DNA of 64,000 bases from an uncultured Oscillospiraceae bacterium (GTDB lineage: Bacteria > Bacillota > Clostridia > Oscillospirales > Oscillospiraceae), in contig CAMVRT010000004.1 of NCBI GenBank assembly GCA_947169975.1, positions 1-64,000 of the forward strand, written 5' to 3'. Each line of letters begins with the position of its first letter. Within the stretch, counting starts at the first letter, position 1. The position numbers and the translations under genes were made by a program. Below the pieces are notes generated by a model, which saw nothing but the letters and a program-made list of their open reading frames with translations, made no database searches and was not told the DNA's origin. Positions 11,727 to 24,227 of the stretch are shown piece after piece.

Positions 11727-12338
11727 TTGAAAAGTCCACGGCGCTTGATGTTCATGATGCATCCGTTGAAAAGAATACGGGCGGATAACCTGTTTTTCGG
11801 TGCTGTATTCTTATTCGGCGCGGTACTTGGTTATATTGCCGGAGCGCTTGTTTCGGATAATCAGCATGTTGAGCTCTCTGATTATCTTCTTTCTTATTCC
11901 CGGGTGGCTTCTGCCGGGTATCCTGCTTCTGCCACTGGTGTTGCTTTTGCGTATTTTCGTCTTCCGGTAGCTGTTTGTCTTGTAAGCTTTGCTGCTTTTG
12001 GCATTTGGTTGATCCCGGTTCTTGTCGCCGGTCAGGGCTTTCTTCTTGCTTTCAGCATTCGCTGCTTTACAGAAGCGCTTGGCCGGGGCGGTGCGCTGCT
12101 TTCCCTGGTTTCGATGGGGATCCGCTGCCTGTTTGTCCTGCCCTGCGTGTTCTATCTCTCCGGCCGTGGTCTCAAAGAGATCATGTATCGCCGCAAAGAC
12201 CTGCATGTCCGCGAGAGGGCAGAACGCCCGCCTGTTTATCCGCTGCTCATCTGCTTTGTTGTTTTGCTGATCGGGTGCATTCTTGACGCCACGTTTTCGC
12301 CCCGTTTATTTACGCTGATTCTGAATCATCACTTTTAG
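11727..12338 (+). CDS. SpoIIM-like integral membrane protein
   Basis: The protein is about 203 residues from a TTG with GAGGTGAG upstream. It has 4-5 hydrophobic spans (~21-44, 72-90, 94-112, 120-140, 175-193). The core (LVAGQGFLLAFSIRCF...GGALLSLVSMGIRCLFVLPCVFYLS) has the spacing of SpoIIM, the membrane component of the SpoIID-IIM-IIP engulfment machine. In many Clostridia spoIIM directly precedes xerD, as here. Sequence similarity is weak by eye, so the call rests partly on context. An upstream in-frame start exists at 11670 but lacks a ribosome site. Confidence 0.5.
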   Translation: MKSPRRLMFMMHPLKRIRADNLFFGAVFLFGAVLGYIAGALVSDNQHVELSDYLLSYSRVASAGYPASATGVAFAYFRLPVAVCLVSFAAFGIWLIPVLVAGQGFLLAFSIRCFTEALGRGGALLSLVSMGIRCLFVLPCVFYLSGRGLKEIMYRRKDLHVRERAERPPVYPLLICFVVLLIGCILDATFSPRLFTLILNHHF

Positions 12339-12357
12339 AAAGGAGTGTTTGCCGGTT

Positions 12358-13242
12358 ATGACAGATTATGTCGAGGCCTACCGTTTGTATCTGGAAAATG
12401 AAAAGCATGCGTCTGCCAATACCAGCAGCTCCTATCTGCGGGATATTCACCAGTTCCGCGACTGGCTGCTGGAGCGCGGCGTCGCAGATCTGCGCAAGGT
12501 GAAAAAGGATCACATTACCACGTACCAGATTCACCTGAACGGCCTCGGAAAATCCCCCGCCACCATCACCCGCGCTACGGCGTCCATCAAGTCCTTCTAC
12601 GGTTATCTTGTGAGCAGCGGCGCAATGAAAACAAACCCTGCCAAGACCGTCGCTTCTGTGAAGGTGGAGCGGAAATACCCCGAGATTCTCACCAACAGGG
12701 AAGTGGAGCTGTTCCTGGATCAGCCCAAGTGTGTGGATGAGAAGGGCTACCGGGATCACGCCATGCTGGAGATTCTGTACGCTACCGGCATCCGCGTTTC
12801 GGAGCTGATCGGCCTGGATCTCCATGACGTCAACCTGGACGCCGGCTTTATTCGCTGCACCAGCAAGGGCAAAGAGCGGATCATTCCGCTTTATCCCACT
12901 GCGGTGCGCGCCCTGCAGGATTACATCCGTGATATCCGTCCGAGGATCATTGCCGATCCCGATGAGCAGGCACTGTTCGTCAATATGAACGGCGAACGGA
13001 TGAGCCGCCAGGGCTTCTGGAAAATCATCAAGTATTATCAGGAGCAGGCGGAGATCAAAAAGGATATCACGCCTCACATGCTTCGGCACTCCTTTGCGGT
13101 TCATCTGCTGGAAAACGGTGCCGATTTGCGTTCCATCCAGGAGATGCTGGGCCATGCGGATATTTCCTCTACCCAGATTTACGCGCATGTTGTGAAGAAG
13201 CAGCTTAAGGACGTCTATATCAAAGCGCATCCCCGCGCATAA
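12358..13242 (+). CDS. xerD: Site-specific tyrosine recombinase XerD
   Basis: The 294-residue protein has a SAM-like DNA-binding N-terminus (~4-88) and a C-terminal catalytic domain with the full set R146 (GIRVSEL), K172, H240/R243 (HMLRHSFA), H266 (LGHADISST) and Y275 (QIYAHV). With XerC it resolves chromosome dimers at dif. AAAGGAGT precedes both a TTG (12349) and the ATG chosen; the ATG has better spacing. The gene ends 12 nt before a terminator bordering an interspersed repeat. Confidence 0.92.
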   Translation: MTDYVEAYRLYLENEKHASANTSSSYLRDIHQFRDWLLERGVADLRKVKKDHITTYQIHLNGLGKSPATITRATASIKSFYGYLVSSGAMKTNPAKTVASVKVERKYPEILTNREVELFLDQPKCVDEKGYRDHAMLEILYATGIRVSELIGLDLHDVNLDAGFIRCTSKGKERIIPLYPTAVRALQDYIRDIRPRIIADPDEQALFVNMNGERMSRQGFWKIIKYYQEQAEIKKDITPHMLRHSFAVHLLENGADLRSIQEMLGHADISSTQIYAHVVKKQLKDVYIKAHPRA

Positions 13243-13253
13243 GCAAAAAAGAA

Positions 13254-13283
13254 AGGCCCGTCGGTTGATAAACCGACGGGCCT
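13254..13283 (+). terminator. xerD terminator, left copy of a duplicated hairpin
   Basis: AGGCCCGTCGGT and ACCGACGGGCCT form a perfect 12-bp stem with loop TGATAA. The identical stem with a different loop recurs at 13458-13487, on the other side of the repeat element. Confidence 0.75.
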
Positions 13284-13457
13284 GAGACTATCAAAAAAGT
13301 CCGTAAAGCGTTGGATCTCGGAAAGGAAGATAGTCTGAAAGAAACCCATCAGGGGTGTCTTTCAGCTTTTTAATCCCCGTTTTCCGAACTTTTTTGAAAG
13401 TTCGGAAAACGCTGCAGCTTGTCCAAAAAGCGGCAGAGCCGCTTTTTTGACAAGCTG
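13284..13457. repeat. 174-nt interspersed structured repeat (MITE-like), copy A
   Basis: By hand alignment it is about 90% identical and equal in length to 21963-22136. The ends are imperfect inverted repeats: GAGACTATCAAAAAAG at the left, and CAGCTTGTCAAAAAAG as the complement of the right. Internal hairpins include AGACTATC/GATAGTCT, CTGAAAGA/TCTTTCAG around CCCATCAGGGG, CGTTTTCCGAACTTT/AAAGTTCGGAAAACG, and AAAAAGCGGC/GCCGCTTTTT inside CAGCTTGTC/GACAAGCTG. No ORF of note. It is flanked by two copies of the local terminator hairpin. Confidence 0.85.
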
Positions 13458-13487
13458 AGGCCCGTCGGTGAATGAACCGACGGGCCT
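13458..13487 (-). terminator. Terminator of the DUF975 gene, right copy of the duplicated hairpin
   Basis: It has the same 12-bp stem as 13254-13283 but loop GAATGA. It faces the minus-strand gene ending at 13508; the stem could work in both directions. Confidence 0.7.
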
Positions 13488-13507
13488 TATCTATTATTGC
13501 GTTCGGA

Positions 13508-14314
13508 TTATTCCTGGATGCTGTGCTTCAGCGTCTGATAGAGCTCTGCGTCTGTGCAGCTCTTGTAGGGCGCTACGTAGAAGATACCCAGAATCCCCAG
13601 TGTAAGCGCGGAGAGGAGATACCATCCGATGAAGGAGAGATCCAGCACAAAGGTGCGCCACTTGCTGCCGTTCATCATCTGACGGGACATGGTGATGACC
13701 TCGGTGCCGCTCATTTCCGGGTGATCGGCAAGAATGTAGGGAACCATCCGGTAGGAGTAGCCTTTAATAATGGCCGGAATGAAAAACAGCAAGCCCCAGA
13801 GGAACAGGAACAGATCCTTCAGGAACATGGTTTTGACGTTTCCGCGCCAGTTGGGCTTGAAAGCCCGGCCGAGATCGCCCATGGCACCCTGTCCCTCGCT
13901 GTTTCGCACAAAGAAGGACTGACAACCCACCTGAATGGGATTGAGCAGAAGGATCTGAAGCACCAGGGATGCTGCCGCGGCAACGGCCACCACGCCGACA
14001 ACGACGGCGATAATGGCAGCAAGTGCGCCCCCATCGATTTCCGATTTTGCCGATTCTTTGATTTCGTTGAAAACGGCGGTGGGATCCTCGGTGATGTCAG
14101 AGATGGACTCGCCAAGCTGGATGGCGTCCTTCTCGTCAGCGTCGTTCTGGCCGAAATTGTAATTGACATTGAATCCGGCAGATCCGGCCGATCCTGCCAA
14201 TCCTGTTCCGCCGCCTGCAACCGCCATAAGGATAACGGCCATCAGCACAGCCAGCCAGTAGTTGGCCTTGAAAGCGGATTTGCCGCGGGCTTTCAGTTCC
14301 TTACGATTCCACAT
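13508..14314 (-). CDS. DUF975 family membrane protein
   Basis: The protein has 268 residues from the ATG after AGGAGG; an in-frame ATG 24 nt upstream is less likely. Hydrophobic spans lie at ~19-45, 100-130, 165-190 and 225-250. The C-terminal half carries the DUF975 signature (RMVPYILADHPEMS, then ITMSRQMMNGSKW, then LGILGIFYVAPYKSCTDAELY). The function of this common clostridial family is unknown. It is monocistronic and converges on xerD. Confidence 0.85.
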   Translation of the reverse strand: MWNRKELKARGKSAFKANYWLAVLMAVILMAVAGGGTGLAGSAGSAGFNVNYNFGQNDADEKDAIQLGESISDITEDPTAVFNEIKESAKSEIDGGALAAIIAVVVGVVAVAAAASLVLQILLLNPIQVGCQSFFVRNSEGQGAMGDLGRAFKPNWRGNVKTMFLKDLFLFLWGLLFFIPAIIKGYSYRMVPYILADHPEMSGTEVITMSRQMMNGSKWRTFVLDLSFIGWYLLSALTLGILGIFYVAPYKSCTDAELYQTLKHSIQE

Positions 14315-14439
14315 AACGAATTCCTCCTGATTCCCCAAATTGGATTTTCACTGATGAGATTATATAGTCTGTTTGTCAATCCGTCAATCCACTTGTTTTG
14401 ATCTGCAGGGAGGGGGGAGATGACCGTGACAGTTTTGTG

Positions 14440-14468
14440 TTGCTATTTTACCCTGCATTTGGTATACT
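14440..14468 (+). promoter_or_regulatory. Promoter of the ruvCAB-glmM cluster
   Basis: TTGCTA and TATACT are separated by 17 nt, about 32 nt before the ruvC ATG. Confidence 0.6.
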
Positions 14469-14500
14469 GTGAACAAGTATTAGGTGGAGGATGCCCATTC

Positions 14501-15013
14501 ATGCGGATTTTAGGGATTGACCCCGGTGTGGCCATTGTGGGCTTCGGCGTCATCGACGTGGAGGCAGGCCGTCAGCAGCTTGTCCAGTACGGCGCTATCA
14601 ACACGGAGGCGGGATTGCCGCTGGCTACCCGGCTGGTGCAGATCGGCAAAGATTTGGAACAGCTCATTGAGTTGTTCCGACCGGATGAGATGGCCATTGA
14701 GGAGCTGTTTTTCAGCAAAAACATCACCACCGGCATCGCTGTCGCCCACGGCCGCGGCGTGATCCTCTACACAGCAGAGCGGCTGCATATCCCCATCTAT
14801 GAGTACACACCCATGCAGGTCAAGCAAGCTGTTGTCGGGTATGGTTTGGCCGAGAAGAAACAGGTCATGGACATGGTACGCCGCCTGCTGAAGCTAAAGT
14901 CGGTGCCCCGTCCGGACGACGCCGCCGACGCCCTGGCCATTGCCATTTGTCACGCCCGCAGCGCCACAAGCCTGCTGCGGCATCACGATCCCAACGTAAA
15001 GGAGACCGTCTGA
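14501..15013 (+). CDS. ruvC: Holliday junction endonuclease RuvC
   Basis: Resolves Holliday junctions bound by RuvAB. The 170-residue protein starts at the ATG after GGTGGAGG. The acidic active-site residues are visible: D7 (GIDPG), E67 (AIEELFF), D140 and D143 (RPDDAADALAIAICH). The longer frame upstream crosses the promoter and is not coding. ruvA starts 2 nt after the stop. Confidence 0.97.
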   Translation: MRILGIDPGVAIVGFGVIDVEAGRQQLVQYGAINTEAGLPLATRLVQIGKDLEQLIELFRPDEMAIEELFFSKNITTGIAVAHGRGVILYTAERLHIPIYEYTPMQVKQAVVGYGLAEKKQVMDMVRRLLKLKSVPRPDDAADALAIAICHARSATSLLRHHDPNVKETV

Positions 15014-15014
15014 T

Positions 15015-15632
15015 ATGTTCTACTATCTGTCCGGCACGGTGGCCGAGATCGACGCCAATCTTGCCGTTATCGACTGCGGCGGCGTGGGCTATGCCTGCGC
15101 CACCACCAACTATACCCTTTCCCAGCTGAAAAAGGGGGAGAAGGCCAGGCTCTATACATACATGAACATCAACACCAACGCCAAGGACGATGTGGTGGAG
15201 CTGTTCGGCTTTGCCAGCCAGAGTGAGCTGAAGAGCTTTAAGATGTTGCTGGGCGTCAACGGCGTGGGCCCGCGTGCCGCGCTGTCCATCCTGTCATCTA
15301 CAACACCCTCCGGCCTGGCTGCCAGCATCATCACGGAGGATGAGAAGGCATTGACGGCGGCGCCCGGCATCGGCAAGAAGATCGCCCAGCGCATTATTCT
15401 CGAACTGAAGGATAAGCTGGCCAAGGAGCAGAGCATCGGCGGCATCACTGTCGTTCCGGGCATGGACACGACCGTACCGCGCACTGGCACCAAGGCGTCG
15501 GAGGCTGCTGCGGCATTGCAGGTGCTGGGATACGGCAGTCAGGAGATTACCGCGGCGCTGCGGGGCATTGACATGGAGAAGCTGTCCTTGGAGGAGATCA
15601 TCCGCCAGGCGCTCAAACAGATGGTGAGATAA
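15015..15632 (+). CDS. ruvA: Holliday junction DNA helicase subunit RuvA
   Basis: The tetrameric junction-binding subunit of the RuvAB branch-migration motor. The 205-residue protein has an OB-fold (1-~62), two helix-hairpin-helix motifs (LLGVNGVGPRAAL ~79-91; AAPGIGKKIAQRI ~115-127), and a C-terminal RuvB-binding three-helix domain (~158-205). It is translationally close to ruvC, and ruvB follows after 12 nt. Confidence 0.97.
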   Translation: MFYYLSGTVAEIDANLAVIDCGGVGYACATTNYTLSQLKKGEKARLYTYMNINTNAKDDVVELFGFASQSELKSFKMLLGVNGVGPRAALSILSSTTPSGLAASIITEDEKALTAAPGIGKKIAQRIILELKDKLAKEQSIGGITVVPGMDTTVPRTGTKASEAAAALQVLGYGSQEITAALRGIDMEKLSLEEIIRQALKQMVR

Positions 15633-15644
15633 GGAGGGATCGGC

Positions 15645-16685
15645 TTGAGCATCGACTTCGGCAACGACATCTACGAAGAACCCATTGTAGCCAAGACCTT
15701 CCTGTCCGAGGACGCCAACGAAGGCTCCCTGCGCCCTCATACGCTGAAGGAATACATCGGCCAGGAGAAGGCCAAGGAGAACCTCTCTGTCTTCATAGAA
15801 GCCGCCAGAAGGCGCACAGAGAGCCTTGACCACGTGCTGCTCCATGGACCCCCGGGTCTGGGAAAAACCACGCTGGCGGGCATTATCGCCCAGGAAATGG
15901 GTGTCAACATCCGCATCACCTCCGGCCCTGCCATTGAGAAGCCGGGCGACCTGGCTGCTCTGCTGACCAACCTGAATGAAAACGACATTCTGTTTGTTGA
16001 TGAGATCCACCGGCTCAATCGCGCGGTGGAGGAGATCCTCTATCCCGCCATGGAGGATTATGCCATCGACATCATCATCGGCAAGGGACCGTCCGCCAAC
16101 TCTATCCGGCTGGATCTGCCCAAATTCACGCTGATCGGCGCCACTACCCGTGCCGGCTCGCTTTCCGCGCCGCTGCGGGATCGCTTTGGCGTCACGCTGC
16201 GGCTGGAGCTGTACACACCGCAGGAGCTTGCACAGATCGTGCGGCGCAGCGCCGGGATTCTCCGTGTGGATATCGAGGACGACGGCGCCATGGAGATCGC
16301 ACGCCGCTCCCGGGGAACACCCCGTATTGCCAACCGCATGCTTCGCCGCGTGCGCGATTTTGCTCAGGTCAAAGCGGACGGCGTCATTACCCGCGACGTG
16401 GCAGACGCCGCGCTGAAGGCGCTGGAGATCGACTACCTCGGTCTGGACCCCGTTGACAGGCGTATGCTGCGCGCTATTATCGAAAACTACGGCGGCGGCC
16501 CTGTCGGTCTCGATACGCTGGCCGCTACCATCGGCGAGGAGTCCGTGACACTGGAGGACGTGTACGAGCCGTATCTGATGCAGATCGGTTTTCTGACCCG
16601 CACGCCCCGTGGCCGCTGTGTGACGCGCAAAGCCTATGAGCATCTGCACATGGACTATCTCGGACAGGAACAACTGGAACTGTAA
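15645..16685 (+). CDS. ruvB: Holliday junction DNA helicase motor RuvB
   Basis: The hexameric AAA+ ATPase of the RuvAB complex. The 346-residue protein has Walker A GPPGLGKT (68-75), Walker B DEIH (119-122), sensor 1 [11 protein letters not shown], an arginine finger region (RDRFG) and a C-terminal winged helix (FLTRTPRGR). The start is a TTG after AAGGAGGG with good spacing; no nearer ATG fits. Confidence 0.98.
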
Positions 16686-16707
16686 GCAGGGAAGAGGAGA
16701 AATACTT

Positions 16708-18063
16708 ATGGGTAAACTATTTGGAACCGACGGCATCCGCGGTGTGGTCGGCGAGACACTGACAGCTGAGCTTGCCTATCACGTAGGACGTGCCGTTACC
16801 GCTGTATTGACTGATAAACTGGGGCACAAGCCTGTGATCACGCTGGGCAAGGACACCCGCATCTCCTCCGATATGCTGGAATCGGCGCTGATGGCCGGCA
16901 TCTGCTCCGCCGGCGGCGACGTGATGCCCTTTGGCACCATTCCCACGCCTGCCGTGGCGTTTCTCACCGTGCAGGAGCATGCCGACGCCGGTATCGTGAT
17001 CTCCGCCTCCCACAATCCCTATGAGCACAACGGCATCAAGGTGTTCAACGGCCAGGGCTATAAGCTCTCCGACGAGATGGAGGCGGCAGTGGAGGATCTG
17101 ATCCTTTTCCACGCCAACCTACCCGTCAAGACGAGAGGGGAGATCGGTACGCGCTTTCACGGCATGCGCCAGATGAAAAAGGACTATATCCACCACCTTT
17201 ACTCCACTGTGGACTGCGACCTCAGCGGCCTGCGTGTGGTGGTGGACTGCGCCAACGGCGCTGCCTCCGCCACGGCACCTCAGCTTTTCGGCATGCTGCC
17301 GCTGCAGGCAGACTTTATCCACGCCGAGCCTGACGGCATCAATATCAACACCAACTGCGGCTCCACACATTTGAGCTCGCTGGCCGAGCATGTGGTCTCC
17401 GGCGGATATGATCTGGGCATCGCCTTTGACGGTGACGCCGACCGCTGCCTTCTGGTGGATGAAAAGGGCGGAACCATCGACGGCGACAAGATTATGGCGG
17501 TCTGTGCCACGGAGCTGCGCCGTCAGGGCAAGCTCACCGGCAGCACCATGGTGGGTACCGTCATGTCCAACCTGGGCCTTCACGAGTTCTGCCAGAAGAA
17601 CGGCATGGTGCTGATCTGCACCGACGTGGGTGACCGCCATGTGCTGGAGGAGATGGTAGAGCACAACTACGCCATCGGCGGCGAGCAATCCGGCCACATG
17701 ATCTTCCGCCAGTTTGCCACCACAGGCGACGGCGAGCTGACGGCGCTGCAGTTCCTGCAGGCGCTGAAAAAGTCCGGGCAGAAGGCATCCGAGCTTGCCT
17801 CCTGCTGCCTGCAGTACCCGCAGATTCTGGTGAATGTTGCCGTTCCGACTGACGCAAAACAGCGGATCATGGCGGATGAATCCATGTGGGAGCAGGTGCA
17901 TAACAGGGAAGAGGAGCTTGGTGACAACGGCCGGATTTTGATTCGCCCTTCCGGCACGGAGTCTCTGATCCGGGTCATGGTGGAGGCCAAAACCACGGAA
18001 ACGGCGTCCCAGGTGGCAAATGATCTGGCTGATTTCATAAAAGGCCTTACAAATCCGCAATAA
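16708..18063 (+). CDS. glmM: Phosphoglucosamine mutase
   Basis: Converts glucosamine-6-phosphate to glucosamine-1-phosphate for UDP-GlcNAc and peptidoglycan synthesis. The 451-residue protein has the phosphoserine loop ISASHNP (S101), metal loop DGDADR (241-246), sugar loop GGEQSGH and phosphate loop RPSGTESLIRVM. GAAGAGGAGA lies upstream of the ATG. In many Firmicutes glmM lies after cdaA-cdaR; here those genes are about 38 kb away and glmM follows ruvB by 22 nt. Confidence 0.98.
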   Translation: MGKLFGTDGIRGVVGETLTAELAYHVGRAVTAVLTDKLGHKPVITLGKDTRISSDMLESALMAGICSAGGDVMPFGTIPTPAVAFLTVQEHADAGIVISASHNPYEHNGIKVFNGQGYKLSDEMEAAVEDLILFHANLPVKTRGEIGTRFHGMRQMKKDYIHHLYSTVDCDLSGLRVVVDCANGAASATAPQLFGMLPLQADFIHAEPDGININTNCGSTHLSSLAEHVVSGGYDLGIAFDGDADRCLLVDEKGGTIDGDKIMAVCATELRRQGKLTGSTMVGTVMSNLGLHEFCQKNGMVLICTDVGDRHVLEEMVEHNYAIGGEQSGHMIFRQFATTGDGELTALQFLQALKKSGQKASELASCCLQYPQILVNVAVPTDAKQRIMADESMWEQVHNREEELGDNGRILIRPSGTESLIRVMVEAKTTETASQVANDLADFIKGLTNPQ

Positions 18064-18099
18064 TTTCCAGAAAAATGCATTATTTTATTTGATAAATGC

Positions 18100-18129
18100 T
18101 TGACAAATTATTTTTTGTGTAGGTATAAT
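18100..18129 (+). promoter_or_regulatory. Strong sigma-A-like promoter at the SigH-like gene, overlapping its first ATG
   Basis: TTGACA and TATAAT are separated by 18 nt. The predicted transcription start (~18136) lies downstream of the ATG codons at 18128 and 18134. So either translation begins at a downstream TTG, or the mRNA is made from another promoter. Confidence 0.6.
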
Positions 18130-18133
18130 GATA

Positions 18134-18748
18134 ATGTTGAACGCAGAATGTTTTGATGGCACCGGATTGGAGAGTTTGGCCGATGAGGAGCTCTGCCGGC
18201 TTGCCCGCGAAGGGAGCAGTCAGGCTGAGCATTTTCTGGTGATCCGATATCTCCGCCTTGTTCGCTCCTGCACGCGGCCGTTTTTTCTGGCCGGGGGCGA
18301 CAACGATGACCTTATTCAGGAGGGTATGCTTGGCCTTCTGAAAGCCATCCGGGAGTATGATTCCGACAGGTACGCATCCTTTCTCACCTTTGCGGATCTT
18401 TGTATCCATCGCTGGATTTATACTGCGTTGAAAACAGCCAACAGCGAAAAACACTCACCCTTGAATGAATCGGTCCCCTTGAATCCCTCTCTCTTTGACG
18501 CAAATGCCTCTTTCGCACAGGTTGACCCGGAAGAGCTGATGATCGAACGGGAAAAAGCCGCCGCTATGCTGGAAGAAGTCCGAAAGCAGTTGTCCGACTT
18601 TGAGGTTAAGATTTTGGGGTATTATTTGGACGGACTTACCTGCCGTGAAATCTCGGAAACTGTGAACAAGCCGCCGAAATCGGTGGATAACGCCATTCAG
18701 AGGATTCGCCGAAAAGTGGCAATGCAATTAGGCGACATCAGCAAGTAG
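18134..18748 (+). CDS. SigH-like RNA polymerase sigma-70 family factor
   Basis: About 204 residues. Region 2 contains DDLIQEGMLGLLKAIREYDSD and FADLCIHRWIYTALKTANSEKHSPLNESVPL, which match SigH, the transition-state and early-sporulation sigma factor. Region 4 is LSDFEVKILGYYLDGLTCREISETVNKPPKSVDNAIQRIRRK. A DPEELMIERE linker is also typical. The N-terminus is uncertain. ATG 18134 (or 18128) overlaps the promoter, while SigH proteins usually begin just before the LADEEL segment, where only TTG codons (18167, 18176) are available. It could be a SigH paralogue rather than SigH itself. Confidence 0.8.
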   Translation: MLNAECFDGTGLESLADEELCRLAREGSSQAEHFLVIRYLRLVRSCTRPFFLAGGDNDDLIQEGMLGLLKAIREYDSDRYASFLTFADLCIHRWIYTALKTANSEKHSPLNESVPLNPSLFDANASFAQVDPEELMIEREKAAAMLEEVRKQLSDFEVKILGYYLDGLTCREISETVNKPPKSVDNAIQRIRRKVAMQLGDISK

Positions 18749-18786
18749 CTGACGCAATATATTTATCTCAAAGAGAGGGTAACATC

Positions 18787-19065
18787 ATGTACGAAGACAA
18801 GACTTTAGTTTGCAAGGAGTGCGGCAAGGAGTTCGTGTTTACCGCCGGTGAGCAGGAGTTCTACGCTGAGCGCGGCTTCCAGAATGAGCCCCAGCGCTGC
18901 AAGGCCTGCCGCGACGCTCGCAAGAACGCTGCCCGCGGTCCCCGGGAGTATTTCACCGCTGTTTGCGCCAACTGCGGCGGCGAGGCCAAGGTTCCCTTCG
19001 AGCCCAAGACCGATCGTCCCGTGTACTGCAGCGACTGCTTCGCCAAGATGCGCGAGAACGGCTGA
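18787..19065 (+). CDS. Small zinc-ribbon protein with two CxxC pairs
   Basis: The 92-residue protein has an N-terminal zf-trcl-type unit: CKECG near residue 9, CKAC near 38, and the signature EFVFTAGEQEFYAERGF. A second CxxC ribbon follows (CANCGG...YCSDCF). AGAGAGGGTAA precedes the ATG. Such proteins are common and uncharacterised in Clostridia and probably bind zinc. It is co-oriented with the sigma factor 38 nt upstream. Confidence 0.85.
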   Translation: MYEDKTLVCKECGKEFVFTAGEQEFYAERGFQNEPQRCKACRDARKNAARGPREYFTAVCANCGGEAKVPFEPKTDRPVYCSDCFAKMRENG

Positions 19066-19097
19066 TCTCCTGCAATCCGGTAATATGTGACTGATGA

Positions 19098-19128
19098 GGC
19101 GGCGCGTTCAAACAATGCGCCGCCTTTT
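19098..19128 (+). terminator. Intrinsic terminator after the zinc-ribbon gene
   Basis: GGCGGCGC and GCGCCGCC form a stem, extended by a G-U and A-T pairs, followed by TTTTC. Confidence 0.75.
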
Positions 19129-19152
19129 CAATGACGAACTGGGGGAGGTTTC

Positions 19153-19335
19153 GTGGAAAAGAAGGTTTATCGAAGCAAACAGAACAGAATGATCGCAGGC
19201 GTCTGCGGCGGAATTGCCGCGTATTTGGATACGGATCCTACACTGGTCCGAATTGCTTGGGCCATCCTTTGCGCAAGCTTAACGGGGATCGTCGCCTATG
19301 TGATTTGTGCGCTTCTCATCCCCAGTGAGCCTTAA
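19153..19335 (+). CDS. PspC-domain small membrane protein
   Basis: The 60-residue protein starts at a GTG after GGGGGAGG. KKVYRSKQNRMIAGVCGGIAAYLDTDPTLVRIAWAI is the PspC fold: a phage-shock-protein-C-type amphipathic segment, then one transmembrane span (~38-56). Members usually respond to or sense envelope stress, but a one-domain protein like this has no assigned role. Confidence 0.85.
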   Translation: MEKKVYRSKQNRMIAGVCGGIAAYLDTDPTLVRIAWAILCASLTGIVAYVICALLIPSEP

Positions 19336-19411
19336 TATGTTTTTTCTGTTGAAATAGCTGATATTACAGGTTAAACTGTTATAGATAATCAAAATATGGA
19401 GGTAATTTCCC

Positions 19412-19621
19412 ATGATTGAAATCAAGAAGGATACCATTATCGGCGATATTCTGGATGTCGCTCCTCAGACTGCTCCCATCTTCCTGTCCATCGGCATGCA
19501 CTGCCTGGGCTGCCCCTCTTCCCGCGGCGAGACTGTGGAAGAGGCCTGCGCGGTCCACGGTGTGGACTGCGAGAAGCTGCTGGAGATCGTCAACGAGGAA
19601 GCCAACAAAGCCGCAAAGTAA
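19412..19621 (+). CDS. DUF1858 domain protein
   Basis: The 69-residue protein matches DUF1858 over its whole length (TIIGDILDVAPQTAPIFLSIGMHCLGCPSSRGETVEEAC). The CLGC pair suggests redox or metal chemistry. The domain also occurs fused to or beside hybrid-cluster and nitroreductase proteins. GGAGG precedes the ATG. It is monocistronic, with its own terminator. Confidence 0.85.
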   Translation: MIEIKKDTIIGDILDVAPQTAPIFLSIGMHCLGCPSSRGETVEEACAVHGVDCEKLLEIVNEEANKAAK

Positions 19622-19630
19622 CCACACAGG

Positions 19631-19666
19631 AACGCATACGGCTTTTGCCGTATGCGTTCTCTTTTG
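19631..19666 (+). terminator. Intrinsic terminator after the DUF1858 gene
   Basis: AACGCATACGGC and GCCGTATGCGTT form a perfect 12-bp stem with a TTTT loop, followed by CTCTTTT. Confidence 0.85.
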
Positions 19667-19689
19667 CCCCGTTAGTGGAGGTATAACCC

Positions 19690-20403
19690 ATGGAGCACAG
19701 AGAATTGACGCTGCAGCCGAGACTCCGGATGCTGGCAGATCTTGTCCCACCGGGGGCGGTTGTTGCCGATGTTGGCACCGATCACGGATATCTGCCTGTC
19801 TGGCTGCTGCAACATGGCAAAATCCCGCGTGCTATTGCATCGGACATCAATGCAAAGCCGTTGGAACATGCACGTCGTACTGCTGCTGAATGCGGTATGT
19901 CTAATCGAATGGAGTTTCGGCTTTGCGCCGGCCTGGACGGTTTTTGCCCCGGTGAGGCAGATGTGATCGTGATTGCCGGCATGGGCGGTGAGACCATCGC
20001 CGCCATATTGGAAGCCGCACCCTGGACGGCCAGTGGTAATACTGCACTGCTGCTTCAGCCGATGACAAAGGCAGAATATCTGCGTATATGGCTGACTGAC
20101 AAGGGATATAGCTTTACAGGAGAACATCTTGTTTTCGACAAGGATTTTCTTTACCCGATCTTTATTGTAACGGGCGGCAATACCGTAAAGCTGACGGATG
20201 AGGAGGCATATGCCGGCGTGATGCTGGAGGGGGATCCTCTATACGGAATGTATTTGTCGCAGCAGATGAGCAGGCTTCGCACCCGCATCGATGGTTTGAC
20301 TCGATCGGGAAATGAATCGGCCATAGAGGAGATCCGGCGTCTGGAGACTTTATACGGTGCGCTCGCCGCGCGAAAGGAGAAACTGCATGATCACAGCTCG
20401 TGA
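19690..20403 (+). CDS. trmK: tRNA (adenine(22)-N1)-methyltransferase TrmK
   Basis: SAM-dependent methyltransferase that makes m1A22 in tRNA. The 237-residue protein has the SAM motif VVADVGTDHGYLPVWLL (~24-40), acidic motif II ASDINAKPLEHAR, the VIAGMGGETI motif (~93-102), and the family's C-terminal helical extension. GTGGAGG precedes the ATG. Its last 17 nt overlap the next gene, the usual trmK-nif3 pairing. Confidence 0.93.
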   Translation: MEHRELTLQPRLRMLADLVPPGAVVADVGTDHGYLPVWLLQHGKIPRAIASDINAKPLEHARRTAAECGMSNRMEFRLCAGLDGFCPGEADVIVIAGMGGETIAAILEAAPWTASGNTALLLQPMTKAEYLRIWLTDKGYSFTGEHLVFDKDFLYPIFIVTGGNTVKLTDEEAYAGVMLEGDPLYGMYLSQQMSRLRTRIDGLTRSGNESAIEEIRRLETLYGALAARKEKLHDHSS

Positions 20404-21172
20404 GATTGAGAAGGTGCTCTTTGACTGGGCACCTCGTGAATTGGCTATGGAATATGACAATGTGGGGCTTCTTGTGGGCGATCCCGATGCCGTTATCACG
20501 CGCGCCTTGGTGACGCTGGACATTACGGAGCCGGTGGTGGAGGAGGCAATCCGCCTCGGCGCGCAGCTGATCGTGTCACACCATCCGGTGATGAACTGTG
20601 CATGGCATCCGGTGCAGTCCCTGCGGACAGATGACAGACAGGGCCGTATTCTCACCGGACTCATTCGTAACAACATCGCTGCCATCTGTATGCACACCAA
20701 CCTTGACGCGGCAGAGGGCGGCGTCAACGATGTTTTGGCCGATAAACTGGGCCTTTCCGTTGTTTTGCCTCTCTCACCGGAAAAAATTGGTCGATATGGG
20801 GTATTAAAATGTGAAATACCTCTTGTGGATTTCGTTGGTTCTGTGGTAAAATCACTTGGATGCAGCGGCGCGCGCTATACGGACCGGGGAAAGCCCGTTC
20901 ACCGCGTTGCCGTCGGCGGCGGTGCGTGTGCCGAGTATATCGGTCACGCGATCGCACTGGGGTGTGATACGTTTGTCACATCGGATCTGAAATACCATGA
21001 GTTCCTGGATACCACGGAGATCAACTTGATTGACGCGGGACATTTCCCCACGGAGGATGTGGTGTGTCAGGCCGTGATTGAACGTCTCTCCGCTGCGTTT
21101 CCCGGGGTTGAGTTTGTTAAAACGACCTCCCATTGTCACGAGGTCATTCAATACTGCATGAAGGAGAACTGA
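20387..21172 (+). CDS. Nif3-like dinuclear metal center hexameric protein
   Basis: The 261-residue protein belongs to the Nif3/YqfO family, with metal-ligand motifs VSHHPV and MHTNLDAA, and a C-terminal HFPTEDVV motif. Here it lacks the PII-like insert found in longer Firmicutes members. The ATG after GAAAGGAG is chosen over an upstream in-frame start at 20357 that would run deep into trmK. Biochemical function of the family is unsettled (GTP cyclohydrolase-like fold). Confidence 0.9.
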   Translation: MITAREIEKVLFDWAPRELAMEYDNVGLLVGDPDAVITRALVTLDITEPVVEEAIRLGAQLIVSHHPVMNCAWHPVQSLRTDDRQGRILTGLIRNNIAAICMHTNLDAAEGGVNDVLADKLGLSVVLPLSPEKIGRYGVLKCEIPLVDFVGSVVKSLGCSGARYTDRGKPVHRVAVGGGACAEYIGHAIALGCDTFVTSDLKYHEFLDTTEINLIDAGHFPTEDVVCQAVIERLSAAFPGVEFVKTTSHCHEVIQYCMKEN

Positions 21173-21176
21173 TACT

Positions 21177-21911
21177 ATGTCCGGACATTCCAAATGGCAC
21201 AATATTCAAAAGACTAAGGGAGCGGCTGACGCCAAGCGTTCCGCGACCTTTACCAAGATCGCCAAGGAGATCATCGTTGCTGTCAAGCAGGGCGGCAGCG
21301 GCGATCCCGCCAACAACTCCCGTCTGGCTACCGTCGTCGCCAAGGCGAAGGCCGCCAACATGCCCAACGACAACATCAAGCGCACCATCGACAAGGCGCT
21401 GGGTGCCGGCAACACCGATAACTATGAGTCCGTCACCTACGAGGGCTACGGTCCCTGCGGCGTGGCTGTCATCGTGGAGGCGCTGACCGACAACCGCCAG
21501 CGCACCGCTCCCGAAGTTCGCCATTATTTCGATAAGTTCGGCAAAGGTATGGGCGCTCAGGGCTGCGTCAGCTGGTCCTTTGACCGCAAGGGCGTTATCG
21601 TCATCAGCAACGAGGACGAGGAACTGGATGAGGACGCTGTGATGATGGACGCTTTGGAGGCCGGCGCCGCCGACTTCGAGGCAGACGGTCCTGTATTTGA
21701 GGTCACCACCGATCCCGACAGCTTCAACGAGGTTGTTGCTGCGCTGGAAGGGAAGGGCTATACCTTTGTCAGCGCCGATATTGAGATGGTTCCCCAGAAC
21801 TATGTTACCATGACCGATCCCGACGATGTGAAGAACATGGAAAAGCTTCTGGATATGCTGGAGGAAAACGAGGACGTGCAGAACGTCTGGCATAACTGGG
21901 ACAACGAGTAA
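21177..21911 (+). CDS. yebC: YebC/PmpR-family regulator or translation factor
   Basis: The 244-residue protein has the family start MSGHSKWHNIQKTKGAADAKR. It also has the MPNDNIKRTIDKALG and YEGYGPCGVAVIVEALTDNRQRT motifs and an acidic C-terminus. YebC proteins were described as DNA-binding regulators, and some members help ribosomes through proline-rich stretches. It starts 4 nt after the Nif3 stop. Confidence 0.95.
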   Translation: MSGHSKWHNIQKTKGAADAKRSATFTKIAKEIIVAVKQGGSGDPANNSRLATVVAKAKAANMPNDNIKRTIDKALGAGNTDNYESVTYEGYGPCGVAVIVEALTDNRQRTAPEVRHYFDKFGKGMGAQGCVSWSFDRKGVIVISNEDEELDEDAVMMDALEAGAADFEADGPVFEVTTDPDSFNEVVAALEGKGYTFVSADIEMVPQNYVTMTDPDDVKNMEKLLDMLEENEDVQNVWHNWDNE

Positions 21912-21926
21912 TCATGCATGAAAAGG

Positions 21927-21962
21927 AAAAGGATGGCAGGCCGCGTGGCCTGCCATCCTTTT
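21927..21962 (+). terminator. yebC terminator, left copy of a duplicated hairpin
   Basis: AAAAGGATGGCAGGCC and GGCCTGCCATCCTTTT form a perfect 16-bp stem with loop GCGT. The same hairpin recurs at 22137-22172, on the far side of the repeat element. Confidence 0.85.
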
Positions 21963-22136
21963 CAGACTGTCAAAAAAGTCCCAAAGGCGTTGTGCGACGG
22001 AAAGGAAGATAGTCTGAAAGAAACCCATCAGGGGTGTCTTTCAGCTTTTTAATCCCCGTTTTCCGAACTTTTTAGAAAGTTCGGAAAACGCCTCAGCTTG
22101 TCAAAAAAGCGGCAAAGCCGCTTTTTTGACAAGCTG
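21963..22136. repeat. 174-nt interspersed structured repeat (MITE-like), copy B
   Basis: This is the second copy of 13284-13457, at ~90% identity with most differences clustered in one 20-nt stretch (about 21980-22000). The terminal inverted repeats are clearer here: CAGACTGTCAAAAAAG at the left against CAGCTTGTCAAAAAAG (complement of the right). A change in the left hairpin (AGACTGTC/GATAGTCT) keeps pairing through G-U. It is bracketed by two copies of the yebC terminator hairpin. Confidence 0.85.
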
Positions 22137-22172
22137 AAAGGATGGCAGGCCGCGTGGCCTGCCATCCTTTTT
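22137..22172 (+). terminator. Right copy of the duplicated yebC terminator hairpin
   Basis: AAAGGATGGCAGGCC and GGCCTGCCATCCTTT with loop GCGT, identical to the left copy, then TT. It sits 80 nt upstream of the cotJ operon. Confidence 0.85.
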
Positions 22173-22251
22173 GCCTGTGACCGTTTCAGGTGCATTCTCA
22201 TAGAATGGGATGACCGCGAGAGCGGCGAGCAATTCGAAGGAGGAACGCACA

Positions 22252-22818
22252 TTGTACTCAGAAAACACACGGATGATGAGGGGCAATTCCATGGCTTCGC
22301 TTGCCGCGGATATGAACGATGCCATGCTGGATCTGAATGACAACGATTCCCGGCGGATGAACGGTATGAACGGCAATGATAACGGCCAGAACGGCTGTGA
22401 CAACGGCAATGGTTGTCTGCCCGGCCGCTGCGCCGCCATGGTCTTTCCCTTTATCGCCATGCAGCCGGAAAACACACGGCGCTACGGGCAGCAGGAGGCT
22501 CTGCGGGAGGGCACGCTGTTCCCGGGACTGAATCTTCCGTTCCACCGGGATCTGGAGACCCGTTTCCCGTCCACCAGTACCGCCCTGTCTGAGCTGATGG
22601 CTCTGGATTTTGCCATCAAGGAGCTGGGCCTCTATCTGGATACCCACAGGGACGACGAGGATGCGCTGCAGCTGTTCCGGTCCTACGTGAAGCTGGCCAG
22701 GGAAGGCCGGCAGAAATATGTGGAGAACTACGGTCCGCTGAAGATGACGGATTGCACCGAGGGCGGATTCCGTTGGCTGGATGATCCGTGGCCCTGGGAA
22801 AGAGGAGGCAATGACTGA
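22252..22818 (+). CDS. Fused spore coat protein CotJA-CotJB
   Basis: The 188-residue protein starts at a TTG with AAGGAGG 8 nt upstream. Residues ~1-60 are Asn/Asp/Met-rich. Residues ~65-95 match CotJA (Q...ALREGTLFPGLNLPFH). Residues ~107-185 match CotJB (LMALDFAIKELGLYLDTHRDDEDAL, then YVENYGPLKMTD, then WLDDPWPWE). The two are usually separate genes in cotJA-cotJB-cotJC operons. The gene overlaps cotJC by one base (TGATG), so the operon order is kept. Confidence 0.85.
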   Translation: MYSENTRMMRGNSMASLAADMNDAMLDLNDNDSRRMNGMNGNDNGQNGCDNGNGCLPGRCAAMVFPFIAMQPENTRRYGQQEALREGTLFPGLNLPFHRDLETRFPSTSTALSELMALDFAIKELGLYLDTHRDDEDALQLFRSYVKLAREGRQKYVENYGPLKMTDCTEGGFRWLDDPWPWERGGND

Positions 22819-23414
22819 TGTTTATTTATGAGAAAAAGCTGCAGTACCCGGTCAACATTGCCACCCCCAACCCCAAGCTGGCGGCTGTGATCATCAGTCA
22901 GTACGGCGGGCCTGACGGGGAGCTTGGCGCGTCGCTGCGCTATCTGAGCCAGCGTTATTCCATGCCCTATCCGGAGCTGAAAGGCCTGCTTACCGACATC
23001 GGCACCGAGGAGCTGGGTCATCTGGAGATGATCGGCGCCATCGTGCATCAGTTGACGCGGAATCTTTCCGAGGACGACATCCGCACCGCCGGTTTTGACG
23101 CCTACTTCGTAGATCATACCGCAGGCGTCTATCCCACTGCCGCCTCCGGCTTCCCCTGGAGCGCAGCGTCCATGCAGGTCAAGGGTGACTTGATCGCGGA
23201 TCTGACGGAGGACCTGGCAGCTGAGCAGAAGGCCCGTGTTACCTACGACAACATTCTGCGGCTCAGTGATGATCCGGACGTAAATGACGCCATTAAGTTC
23301 CTACGTGCCCGTGAGATCGTCCATTTCCAGCGATTTGGAGAAGGCCTGCGCCTTGCCAAGGAACGGATGGATCAAAAGAACATCTATTTCATCAACCCGT
23401 CCTTCGACCGGTAA
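22818..23414 (+). CDS. cotJC: Spore coat protein CotJC, manganese-catalase family
   Basis: The 198-residue ferritin-like di-manganese catalase fold is intact. Helices carry the metal ligands in LGASLRYLSQRY, GTEELGHLEMIG, EDLAAEQKARVTYDNI and AREIVHFQRFGEGL. CotJC is part of the spore inner coat and may detoxify peroxide. Its ATG overlaps the cotJAB stop, and a strong terminator follows. Confidence 0.95.
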   Translation: MFIYEKKLQYPVNIATPNPKLAAVIISQYGGPDGELGASLRYLSQRYSMPYPELKGLLTDIGTEELGHLEMIGAIVHQLTRNLSEDDIRTAGFDAYFVDHTAGVYPTAASGFPWSAASMQVKGDLIADLTEDLAAEQKARVTYDNILRLSDDPDVNDAIKFLRAREIVHFQRFGEGLRLAKERMDQKNIYFINPSFDR

Positions 23415-23421
23415 AGTGTCA

Positions 23422-23457
23422 AAAAGACCTCCGAATTTCCTCGGAGGTCTTTTTTTT
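23422..23457 (+). terminator. Intrinsic terminator of the cotJ operon
   Basis: AAGACCTCCGA and TCGGAGGTCTT with loop ATTTCC, followed by a run of T. Confidence 0.9.
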
Positions 23458-23528
23458 GCCTGTTCGATATGCTATAATCATAGTGGATATAAAGGCAGCA
23501 TAGGCTGACCCGAGGAGGGGAGTGTCCT

Positions 23529-24227
23529 ATGCGTATTCGATCGAAACTGATGCTGGTTCTGTGCGTATTCCTGGCGGTTTCCAGCTGCCCTGTATCTGCA
23601 GAGGCAATGCAACATGACCCGACGGTGATCATTGACGCCGGGCACGGCGGAGAGGACGGCGGAGCCGTATCGGCGGACGGTGTCCCCGAGAGCGGAATCA
23701 ATCTGCAGATCACGAGGAAGCTGGACGACCTGATGGTATTCCTGGGGTATGACGTATTATTGACGAGGGAAGGGGAGGACGCCGTCTACTCACCGGATGC
23801 TGCGACGCTCCGGGAAAAGAAGGTGTCCGATCTCAAAAACCGGGTCGCACTGATCAATGAGCAGGAGAATGCCTTTGTGATCAGCATACACCAGAACAGC
23901 TTGCCCAATCATCCGCGCGTCCACGGTGCAAAGGTGTTTTACAACACCGTTCTTCCGTCACGTCAGGCAGCAGAATCGGTGCAGAAGACCATGAATCTGG
24001 CTGTAAATGGCGGTGAGGAACGTCCGGTTACCCCCATTGACAGCACCATCTACCTGATGAAAGAATCAAAACACCCGGCCATTCTGGTGGAGTGCGGTTT
24101 TATGAGCAATCCGGAGGAGAGCCGACAGCTGCAGCAGAGCGCCTATCAAACGCGCCTGGCGGTGGCCATTGCTGCCGGTATCGGTCAATTCTCAAAAGAT
24201 GAAAGAGGAACGGTACATGAAGGCTAA
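23529..24227 (+). CDS. cwlD: N-acetylmuramoyl-L-alanine amidase, CwlD-like
   Basis: The 232-residue protein has a signal peptide (1-~25, ending SAEA) and an Amidase_3 zinc domain: H39 (DAGHGGEDGG), E54 (PESGINLQI), a second His in SIHQNS, and the catalytic Glu in VECGFMSNPEE. CwlD removes stem peptides to start muramic-delta-lactam formation in the spore cortex. GAGGAGGGGAG lies upstream. A TATAAT at 23473 may be its -10 box. It overlaps radA by 11 nt. Confidence 0.9.
   Translation: MRIRSKLMLVLCVFLAVSSCPVSAEAMQHDPTVIIDAGHGGEDGGAVSADGVPESGINLQITRKLDDLMVFLGYDVLLTREGEDAVYSPDAATLREKKVSDLKNRVALINEQENAFVISIHQNSLPNHPRVHGAKVFYNTVLPSRQAAESVQKTMNLAVNGGEERPVTPIDSTIYLMKESKHPAILVECGFMSNPEESRQLQQSAYQTRLAVAIAAGIGQFSKDERGTVHEG

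Follow-up and report, generated by a model that had tools for sequence, protein, structure and literature searches.

A noncoding element with IS1182-type ends between duplicated terminator hairpins in an Oscillospiraceae genome

Analysis of the window, the whole 64,000-nt stretch of DNA considered here, indicated that the noncoding element downstream of a yebC-type gene is probably a MITE of a hairpin-inserting IS1182 group that duplicates the whole hairpin at its target, a reading to which we assign a probability of about 0.87. IS1182-type ends and locus-specific hairpins at those ends were observed, as was an exact duplication relative to an empty site. The element is short, noncoding and multicopy, with terminal inverted repeats (TIRs) like those of the autonomous element and a target duplication, as in a MITE.

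Copy B of the element, 174 bp long, lies between two hairpins that are identical at 35/35 nt, and the perfect duplication of the yebC terminator described here in the first-pass annotation was thereby confirmed (Table 1). The left hairpin starts 16 nt after the end of the yebC-type gene. Its 15-nt arm occurs four times in the window, corresponding to two hairpins with two arms each, and nowhere else in the window at up to two mismatches; the chance expectation obtained by shuffling was 0.28. The RNA fold of the stretch containing the duplicated hairpin and the element gave -161.6 kcal/mol versus a shuffle mean of -80.4 kcal/mol, a stability that follows from the row of perfect hairpins and has no bearing on function. 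Judged by sequence only, the hairpin formed by the element's right end would be terminator-like in both directions. A bare hairpin of ~45 nt resembling this right end was seen in the right flank of locus L115, between the IS-side hairpin and another hairpin, and is perhaps a minimal mobile unit.

Table 1. Positions in the window of copies A and B of the element, their flanking hairpins and the neighbouring gene.
Feature	Position	Strand	Remarks
Copy A, left hairpin	13254..13283	+	Stem as in the right hairpin, other loop
Copy A of the element (L003)	13284..13457	+	92% identical to copy B
Copy A, right hairpin	13458..13487	+	Same stem, other loop
yebC-type gene	21177..21911	+	Pfam PF01709, PF20772; its terminator is the putative target
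yebC terminator hairpin, left of the element	21928..21962	+	Putative target duplication, 35 nt, loop GCGT, identical to 22137-22171
Copy B, putative MITE, 174 bp, noncoding	21963..22136	+	Ends CAGACTGTCAAAAAAG ... CTTTTTTGACAAGCTG; one of six full genomic copies
Perfect right-end hairpin of copy B	22093..22137	+	Facing terminal-repeat copies around GCGGC-AAA-GCCGC; A6 before, T6 after
yebC terminator hairpin, right of the element	22137..22171	+	Runs on into downstream genomic sequence; single orthologous hairpin in G005 and G015

A search of this genome (46 contigs, 2.16 Mb) returned six full copies of the element, the five others being 88-99% identical to copy B. The first-pass annotation had proposed that every genomic copy be checked for locus-specific duplicated hairpins, and the outcome was favorable: a hairpin touches both ends in 6/6 copies, and the six hairpins are mutually unrelated in sequence, so that the claimed lack of relationship between the hairpins of copies A and B extends to the whole set. 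The two sides are identical in three copies (L001, which is copy B, L005, and L006), while in the other three (L002, L003, which is copy A, and L004) the stem arms are equal but the loops differ. At copy A the loops read TGATAA and GAATGA between identical arms; the same architecture claimed for both loci therefore stands insofar as each copy has a hairpin on both sides, but a perfect duplication does not hold for copy A. Loop inversion in L002, L003, and L004 was rejected after comparison by eye with the reverse complement. Upstream of copy A, window positions 12349-13242 contain a gene resembling a tyrosine recombinase (PF00589).

The same genome also holds elements with the same kind of ends and other sizes (204, 269, and 320 nt), nine of which were found at 14 loci. 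Inspection by eye revealed identical or near-identical hairpin pairs in five of these; two more share the stem and have another tip or edge, one has half a hairpin, and one has differing hairpins. At L026 (1218-1537 plus flanks) the outer stem is common to both end hairpins and the tips differ.

To describe the element across the genus we assembled 30 MITEs, including the six full genome copies, from loci that the searches happened to return; three of them (L003, L004, and L193) were added by hand to 27 others, and seven loci with no pair of ends (L171, L173, L174, L178, L183, L184, and L185) were left out. A perfect stem of at least 8 bp adjoins the left end in 23 of the 30, the right end in 23 and both in 19, compared with 24/1800 control positions. 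Under a looser rule (stem of at least 5), hairpins were found at both ends in 26/30 MITEs, with 256/1800 control positions; 13 of these 26 carry the same hairpin on both sides, 11 carry related hairpins and two (L177 and L186) unrelated ones. The remaining four consist of L172, with an identical imperfect hairpin, L181, with a diverged one, and L046 and L170, without a hairpin on one side. In L169, the loops of the two hairpin copies are reverse complementary with one mismatch.

Larger numbers came from relatives identified by scanning species genomes with the transposase, largely Oscillospiraceae and other Clostridia, from which the best 80 of 189 were kept. Comparison by eye covered 67 of these 80, leaving 13 not entered, and disclosed a direct repeat of at least 12 nt with a hairpin or palindrome at the element ends in 42/67. 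The automatic test covered all 80, considered only the ends with 40 nt of flank and required a perfect stem of at least 6. Among these best 80 of 189 relatives, a perfect hairpin adjoins 59/69 visible left ends and 61/70 visible right ends, compared with 107/3200 random positions from the same loci, elements included. Both ends are visible in 59 loci, 48 of which have hairpins at both; these 48 comprise 35 pairs of the same hairpin (identical or contained), two loop-inverted pairs, one pair with a 1-nt difference (L143), and ten unrelated pairs. The 35 same-hairpin pairs are 18-64 nt long with a median of 27. Among the eleven remaining loci, four (L091, L121, L133, and L142) appeared duplicated by eye, yet failed the automatic rule, and in the other seven (L087, L093, L094, L100, L152, L153, and L161) no duplicated hairpin was seen.

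The ten unrelated pairs likely reflect recombination between copies, and misassembly is also proposed. AP018533 is a complete genome, and in it a single base distinguishes the left hairpin of L108 from the right one of L118, while the hairpin of L112 resembles that of L123; the flanking hairpins seem to have been swapped, a sign of recombination between IS copies. Swapped or similar partners were seen solely for L108/L118, L112/L123, and L159/L160, and for most of the ten pairs no swap partner was seen. The complete genome of Chakrabartyella piscis, where 9/9 kept loci show such a repeat by eye and seven are among the 35, shows that short-read misassembly is not the general cause.

These pairs also bear on the strongest alternative, in which the element inserts beside a hairpin with a short or blunt cut and the hairpin is copied afterwards by template switching or repair. 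Such secondary copying would accommodate pairs that differ at the tip, as at L026 with its common outer stem, and those at L097 and L107, where the loops of the two copies are exact reverse complements of each other, with L169 coming close. Against it, the 35 pairs agree with the loop included, and 32 of the 35 are not self-complementary, so that a flip would have been visible. We consider secondary copying unlikely, although it is the alternative that retains some weight beside direct duplication of the target hairpin.

Loops were more variable than stems, both between duplicated copies and between species. The loop of the yebC terminator itself differs among genomes (GCGT in G000, GCCG in G005, and GACA in G015), and fast loop change is therefore the simplest reading of the loop differences. 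These changes may represent later evolution of the tip or the trace of a hairpin intermediate.

Comparison with empty sites, likewise proposed in the first-pass annotation, was informative at two places. In the sister species G005 and G015, whose yebC stretches are both 90% identical, a single hairpin with the same stem core follows yebC where the window has two. G016 contains a different, 203-nt MITE (L193, 2275-2477) that represents an independent insertion in the orthologous yebC terminator; its flanking hairpins differ at one position, and G012 provides the empty counterpart, with one hairpin and nearly the same flanks. In total, the duplication was seen in 2/27 yebC loci, those of G000 and G016.

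The second place is the Listeria plasmid pLIS32, in which an IS1182 element lies between two copies of a 21-bp hairpin. The left flank of this insertion was found in 20 records: one is filled (pLIS32) and five have both flanks continuous, some of these five possibly being one plasmid sequenced repeatedly and three having been judged by coordinates. In the five continuous records the flanks overlap by 9 nt of the hairpin, which was included in both queries. In a L. grayi record the flanks lie close together, but no alignment covers the part from the hairpin, and 13 records have a diverged right side. Two empty plasmids were read at the sequence level, and each has the hairpin once; in one, 240 nt to the left and 300 nt to the right are identical to the filled plasmid, while the second (L. 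innocua) has one mismatch on the left. In this pair nothing is lost and one hairpin is gained, which makes the duplication exact.

An alternative explanation is that two similar terminators already stood in tandem and the element came to lie between them, with no duplication. The differing loops in 3/6 genomic copies would fit this explanation, but the single hairpin at the yebC site in G005 and G015, the change in Listeria from one hairpin without the IS to two with it, and the 35 same-hairpin pairs at unrelated loci speak against it; wherever an empty counterpart is available it is refuted, and overall it is very improbable. We regard as similarly improbable that the hairpin was replaced in the manner of IS1272 and that the flanks resemble each other by chance. 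IS1272 belongs to the same family and also targets hairpins, according to the available portions of PMC4923244 and PMC5678879, yet replacement removes the hairpin, while in the present case each hairpin is intact and no part of the empty site is missing; stem-loop loss without duplication was not found, and it is refuted for the one Listeria filled/empty pair. Finally, the flanking hairpins adjoin the element ends and might have been taken as part of a longer element, an idea that we discard almost entirely, being refuted by hairpins that vary by locus beside an element that is 88-100% identical and by the presence of the hairpin in empty sites.

Targeting of terminators with duplication of the whole hairpin, the central proposal of the first-pass annotation, was supported by the unrelated hairpins at both ends of all six full copies and by the empty sites. 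In the relatives, the 8 nt that follow the right hairpin include at least 5 T in 29/61 cases (control 70/1600), and the 8 nt that precede the left hairpin include at least 5 A in 27/59 (control 97/1600). The corresponding count of T directly after the left hairpin, where the element starts, was 0/59. Insertion targets thus often appear terminator-like. Neither tract was present at 4 of 8 in 5/35 same-hairpin pairs, which suggests that terminators are common targets but that a hairpin may be enough.

The breadth of this mode was sampled with nine chosen plasmid loci out of 1815 records with a match. Hairpin duplication was present in three of the nine, from Sutcliffiella (30 bp), Listeria (21 bp), and Sphingobium (18 bp); the alphaproteobacterial Sphingobium locus still duplicates at 38% protein identity. 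The Exiguobacterium locus has differing hairpins at its two ends, and those of Thermocaproicibacter and Enterococcus offered one usable end each. No duplication was seen at the more distant alphaproteobacterial loci of Dinoroseobacter, Novosphingobium, and Bradyrhizobium (26-27% identity), which have other ends, guessed from inverted repeats. Besides the relatives in Clostridia, the duplicating mode extends to two plasmids of Bacilli and one of an alphaproteobacterium.

The ends of the element (CAGnnTGTCAAA...) match those of IS1182-family insertion sequences, and the first 19 nt of the MITE recur unchanged at the ends of several IS1182 loci in Chakrabartyella and Acetobacterium. PF13751, the sole family sought, has one match in this genome, a transposase gene whose product scored 397 bits against the NCBI IS1182 model NF033551 (cut-off 270) and matched DDE_Tnp_1_6, DDE_Tnp_1, and DUF772 in Pfam. 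The surviving end of this IS consists of a hairpin followed by TCAGCTTGTCAAAG; directly behind the transposase gene stands a hairpin and then TCAGCTTGTCAAAGAACCCCC, and both end type and placement are as in the MITE. By eye, the other end is truncated by 8 nt on its outer side, and the hairpin of that side is missing as well; TIRs on both sides are present in the relatives, while the copy in this genome lacks those 8 nt. In 62/62 aligned transposases, after poor sequences were dropped, D148, D281, and E408 are invariant, and on the basis of motifs rather than a structure we take these to be the DDE triad; nine other D/E positions are equally conserved (at least 95%).

Between the MITE ends and the genome's own IS, agreement is confined to TCAGnnTGTCAAA. 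At E 0.01 the MITE interior matched neither this IS nor its closest relatives, and no IS locus matched beyond the ends. PF13751 had no match in four further genomes of the genus in which MITE-like matches occur, three of the four being 71-79% complete. The link between MITE and IS runs through the ends, by which IS1182 is well supported as the family of the mobilizing enzyme; an individual IS as partner is not supported. A transposase like the genome's own presumably acts in trans on the MITEs.

DDE transposases join the 3' ends of an element to the two strands of the target, and the spacing of the joints equals the duplication, which in ordinary DDE transposition is short and of a length fixed by the enzyme. 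In the mechanism we propose, a DDE transposase of the IS1182 family would mobilize the nonautonomous MITE and choose an inverted repeat, often a terminator, as target. On each strand, the hairpin's 5' foot would be the point to which a 3' end of the element is joined; with joints at the two feet, the spacing would be one hairpin length, and gap repair would leave a full hairpin on each side. The target structure, rather than a stagger fixed by the enzyme, would then determine how long the duplication is (18-64 nt seen). Since the joint spacing follows the hairpin, the joints most likely lie at the 5' feet of an extruded cruciform, and the target would be in this form when attacked. This suggests that the shape of the DNA, and not its sequence, guides the mobilizing enzyme to a target. 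On balance we also favor, with more reserve than for the assignment of the element itself, the wider proposal that in the IS1182-type branch and its MITEs secondary structure sets both cut points in a stem-loop duplication pathway, with flipped loops as traces of the intermediate.

If correct, direct duplication of the target hairpin would provide natural evidence for a pathway previously drawn as a model and a counterpart to the replacement attributed to IS1272. As the length of the duplication would follow the shape of the target, natural insertions could serve as a record of the DNA hairpins that become extruded in cells. By choosing terminators, the element would avoid disrupting genes when it inserts.

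Class C group II introns insert beside intrinsic terminators. They resemble the element in this position and, unlike it, have no DDE transposase or terminal inverted repeats; no Rfam family reached its gathering threshold in window positions 12000-24000, and a class C group II intron was rejected. Searches within the open-licence literature turned up no account of hairpin duplication. The duplication lengths that ISfinder lists for the IS1182 family span a wide range, and its curators may know single cases. In the available portions of PMC3281130, PMC2828477, PMC3852290, PMC9208149, and PMC10969869, hairpin duplication is absent. ISPse1 is of the IS1182 family like the element described here, and a table value of 4 in the portion of PMC3281130 available was read as a 4-bp duplication. 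The ISMac2 MITEs of Methanosarcina (PMC3852290) are likewise noncoding, measure 160-169 bp and have an IS1182-family partner; the values 26 and 4, or 25 and 0, were read as inverted- and direct-repeat lengths, with no hairpin duplication in the portion available.

The closest comparison is with IS1272/TnSha1, which, as far as the available portions of PMC4923244 and PMC5678879 go, share an IS1182-family transposase and target inverted repeats that have no common sequence and include several terminators. For IS1272, insertion into hairpins with deletion and no duplication is described in the part of PMC4923244 available. Duplication of the whole stem-loop was drawn in 2017 as pathway b of the Fig 13 model in PMC5678879, beside the replacement favored for IS1272, and the portion of that paper available contained no supporting data for pathway b. 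The two systems differ in outcome: by these accounts IS1272 replaces the stem-loop, whereas here the stem-loop is kept and duplicated, a testable contrast within one family.
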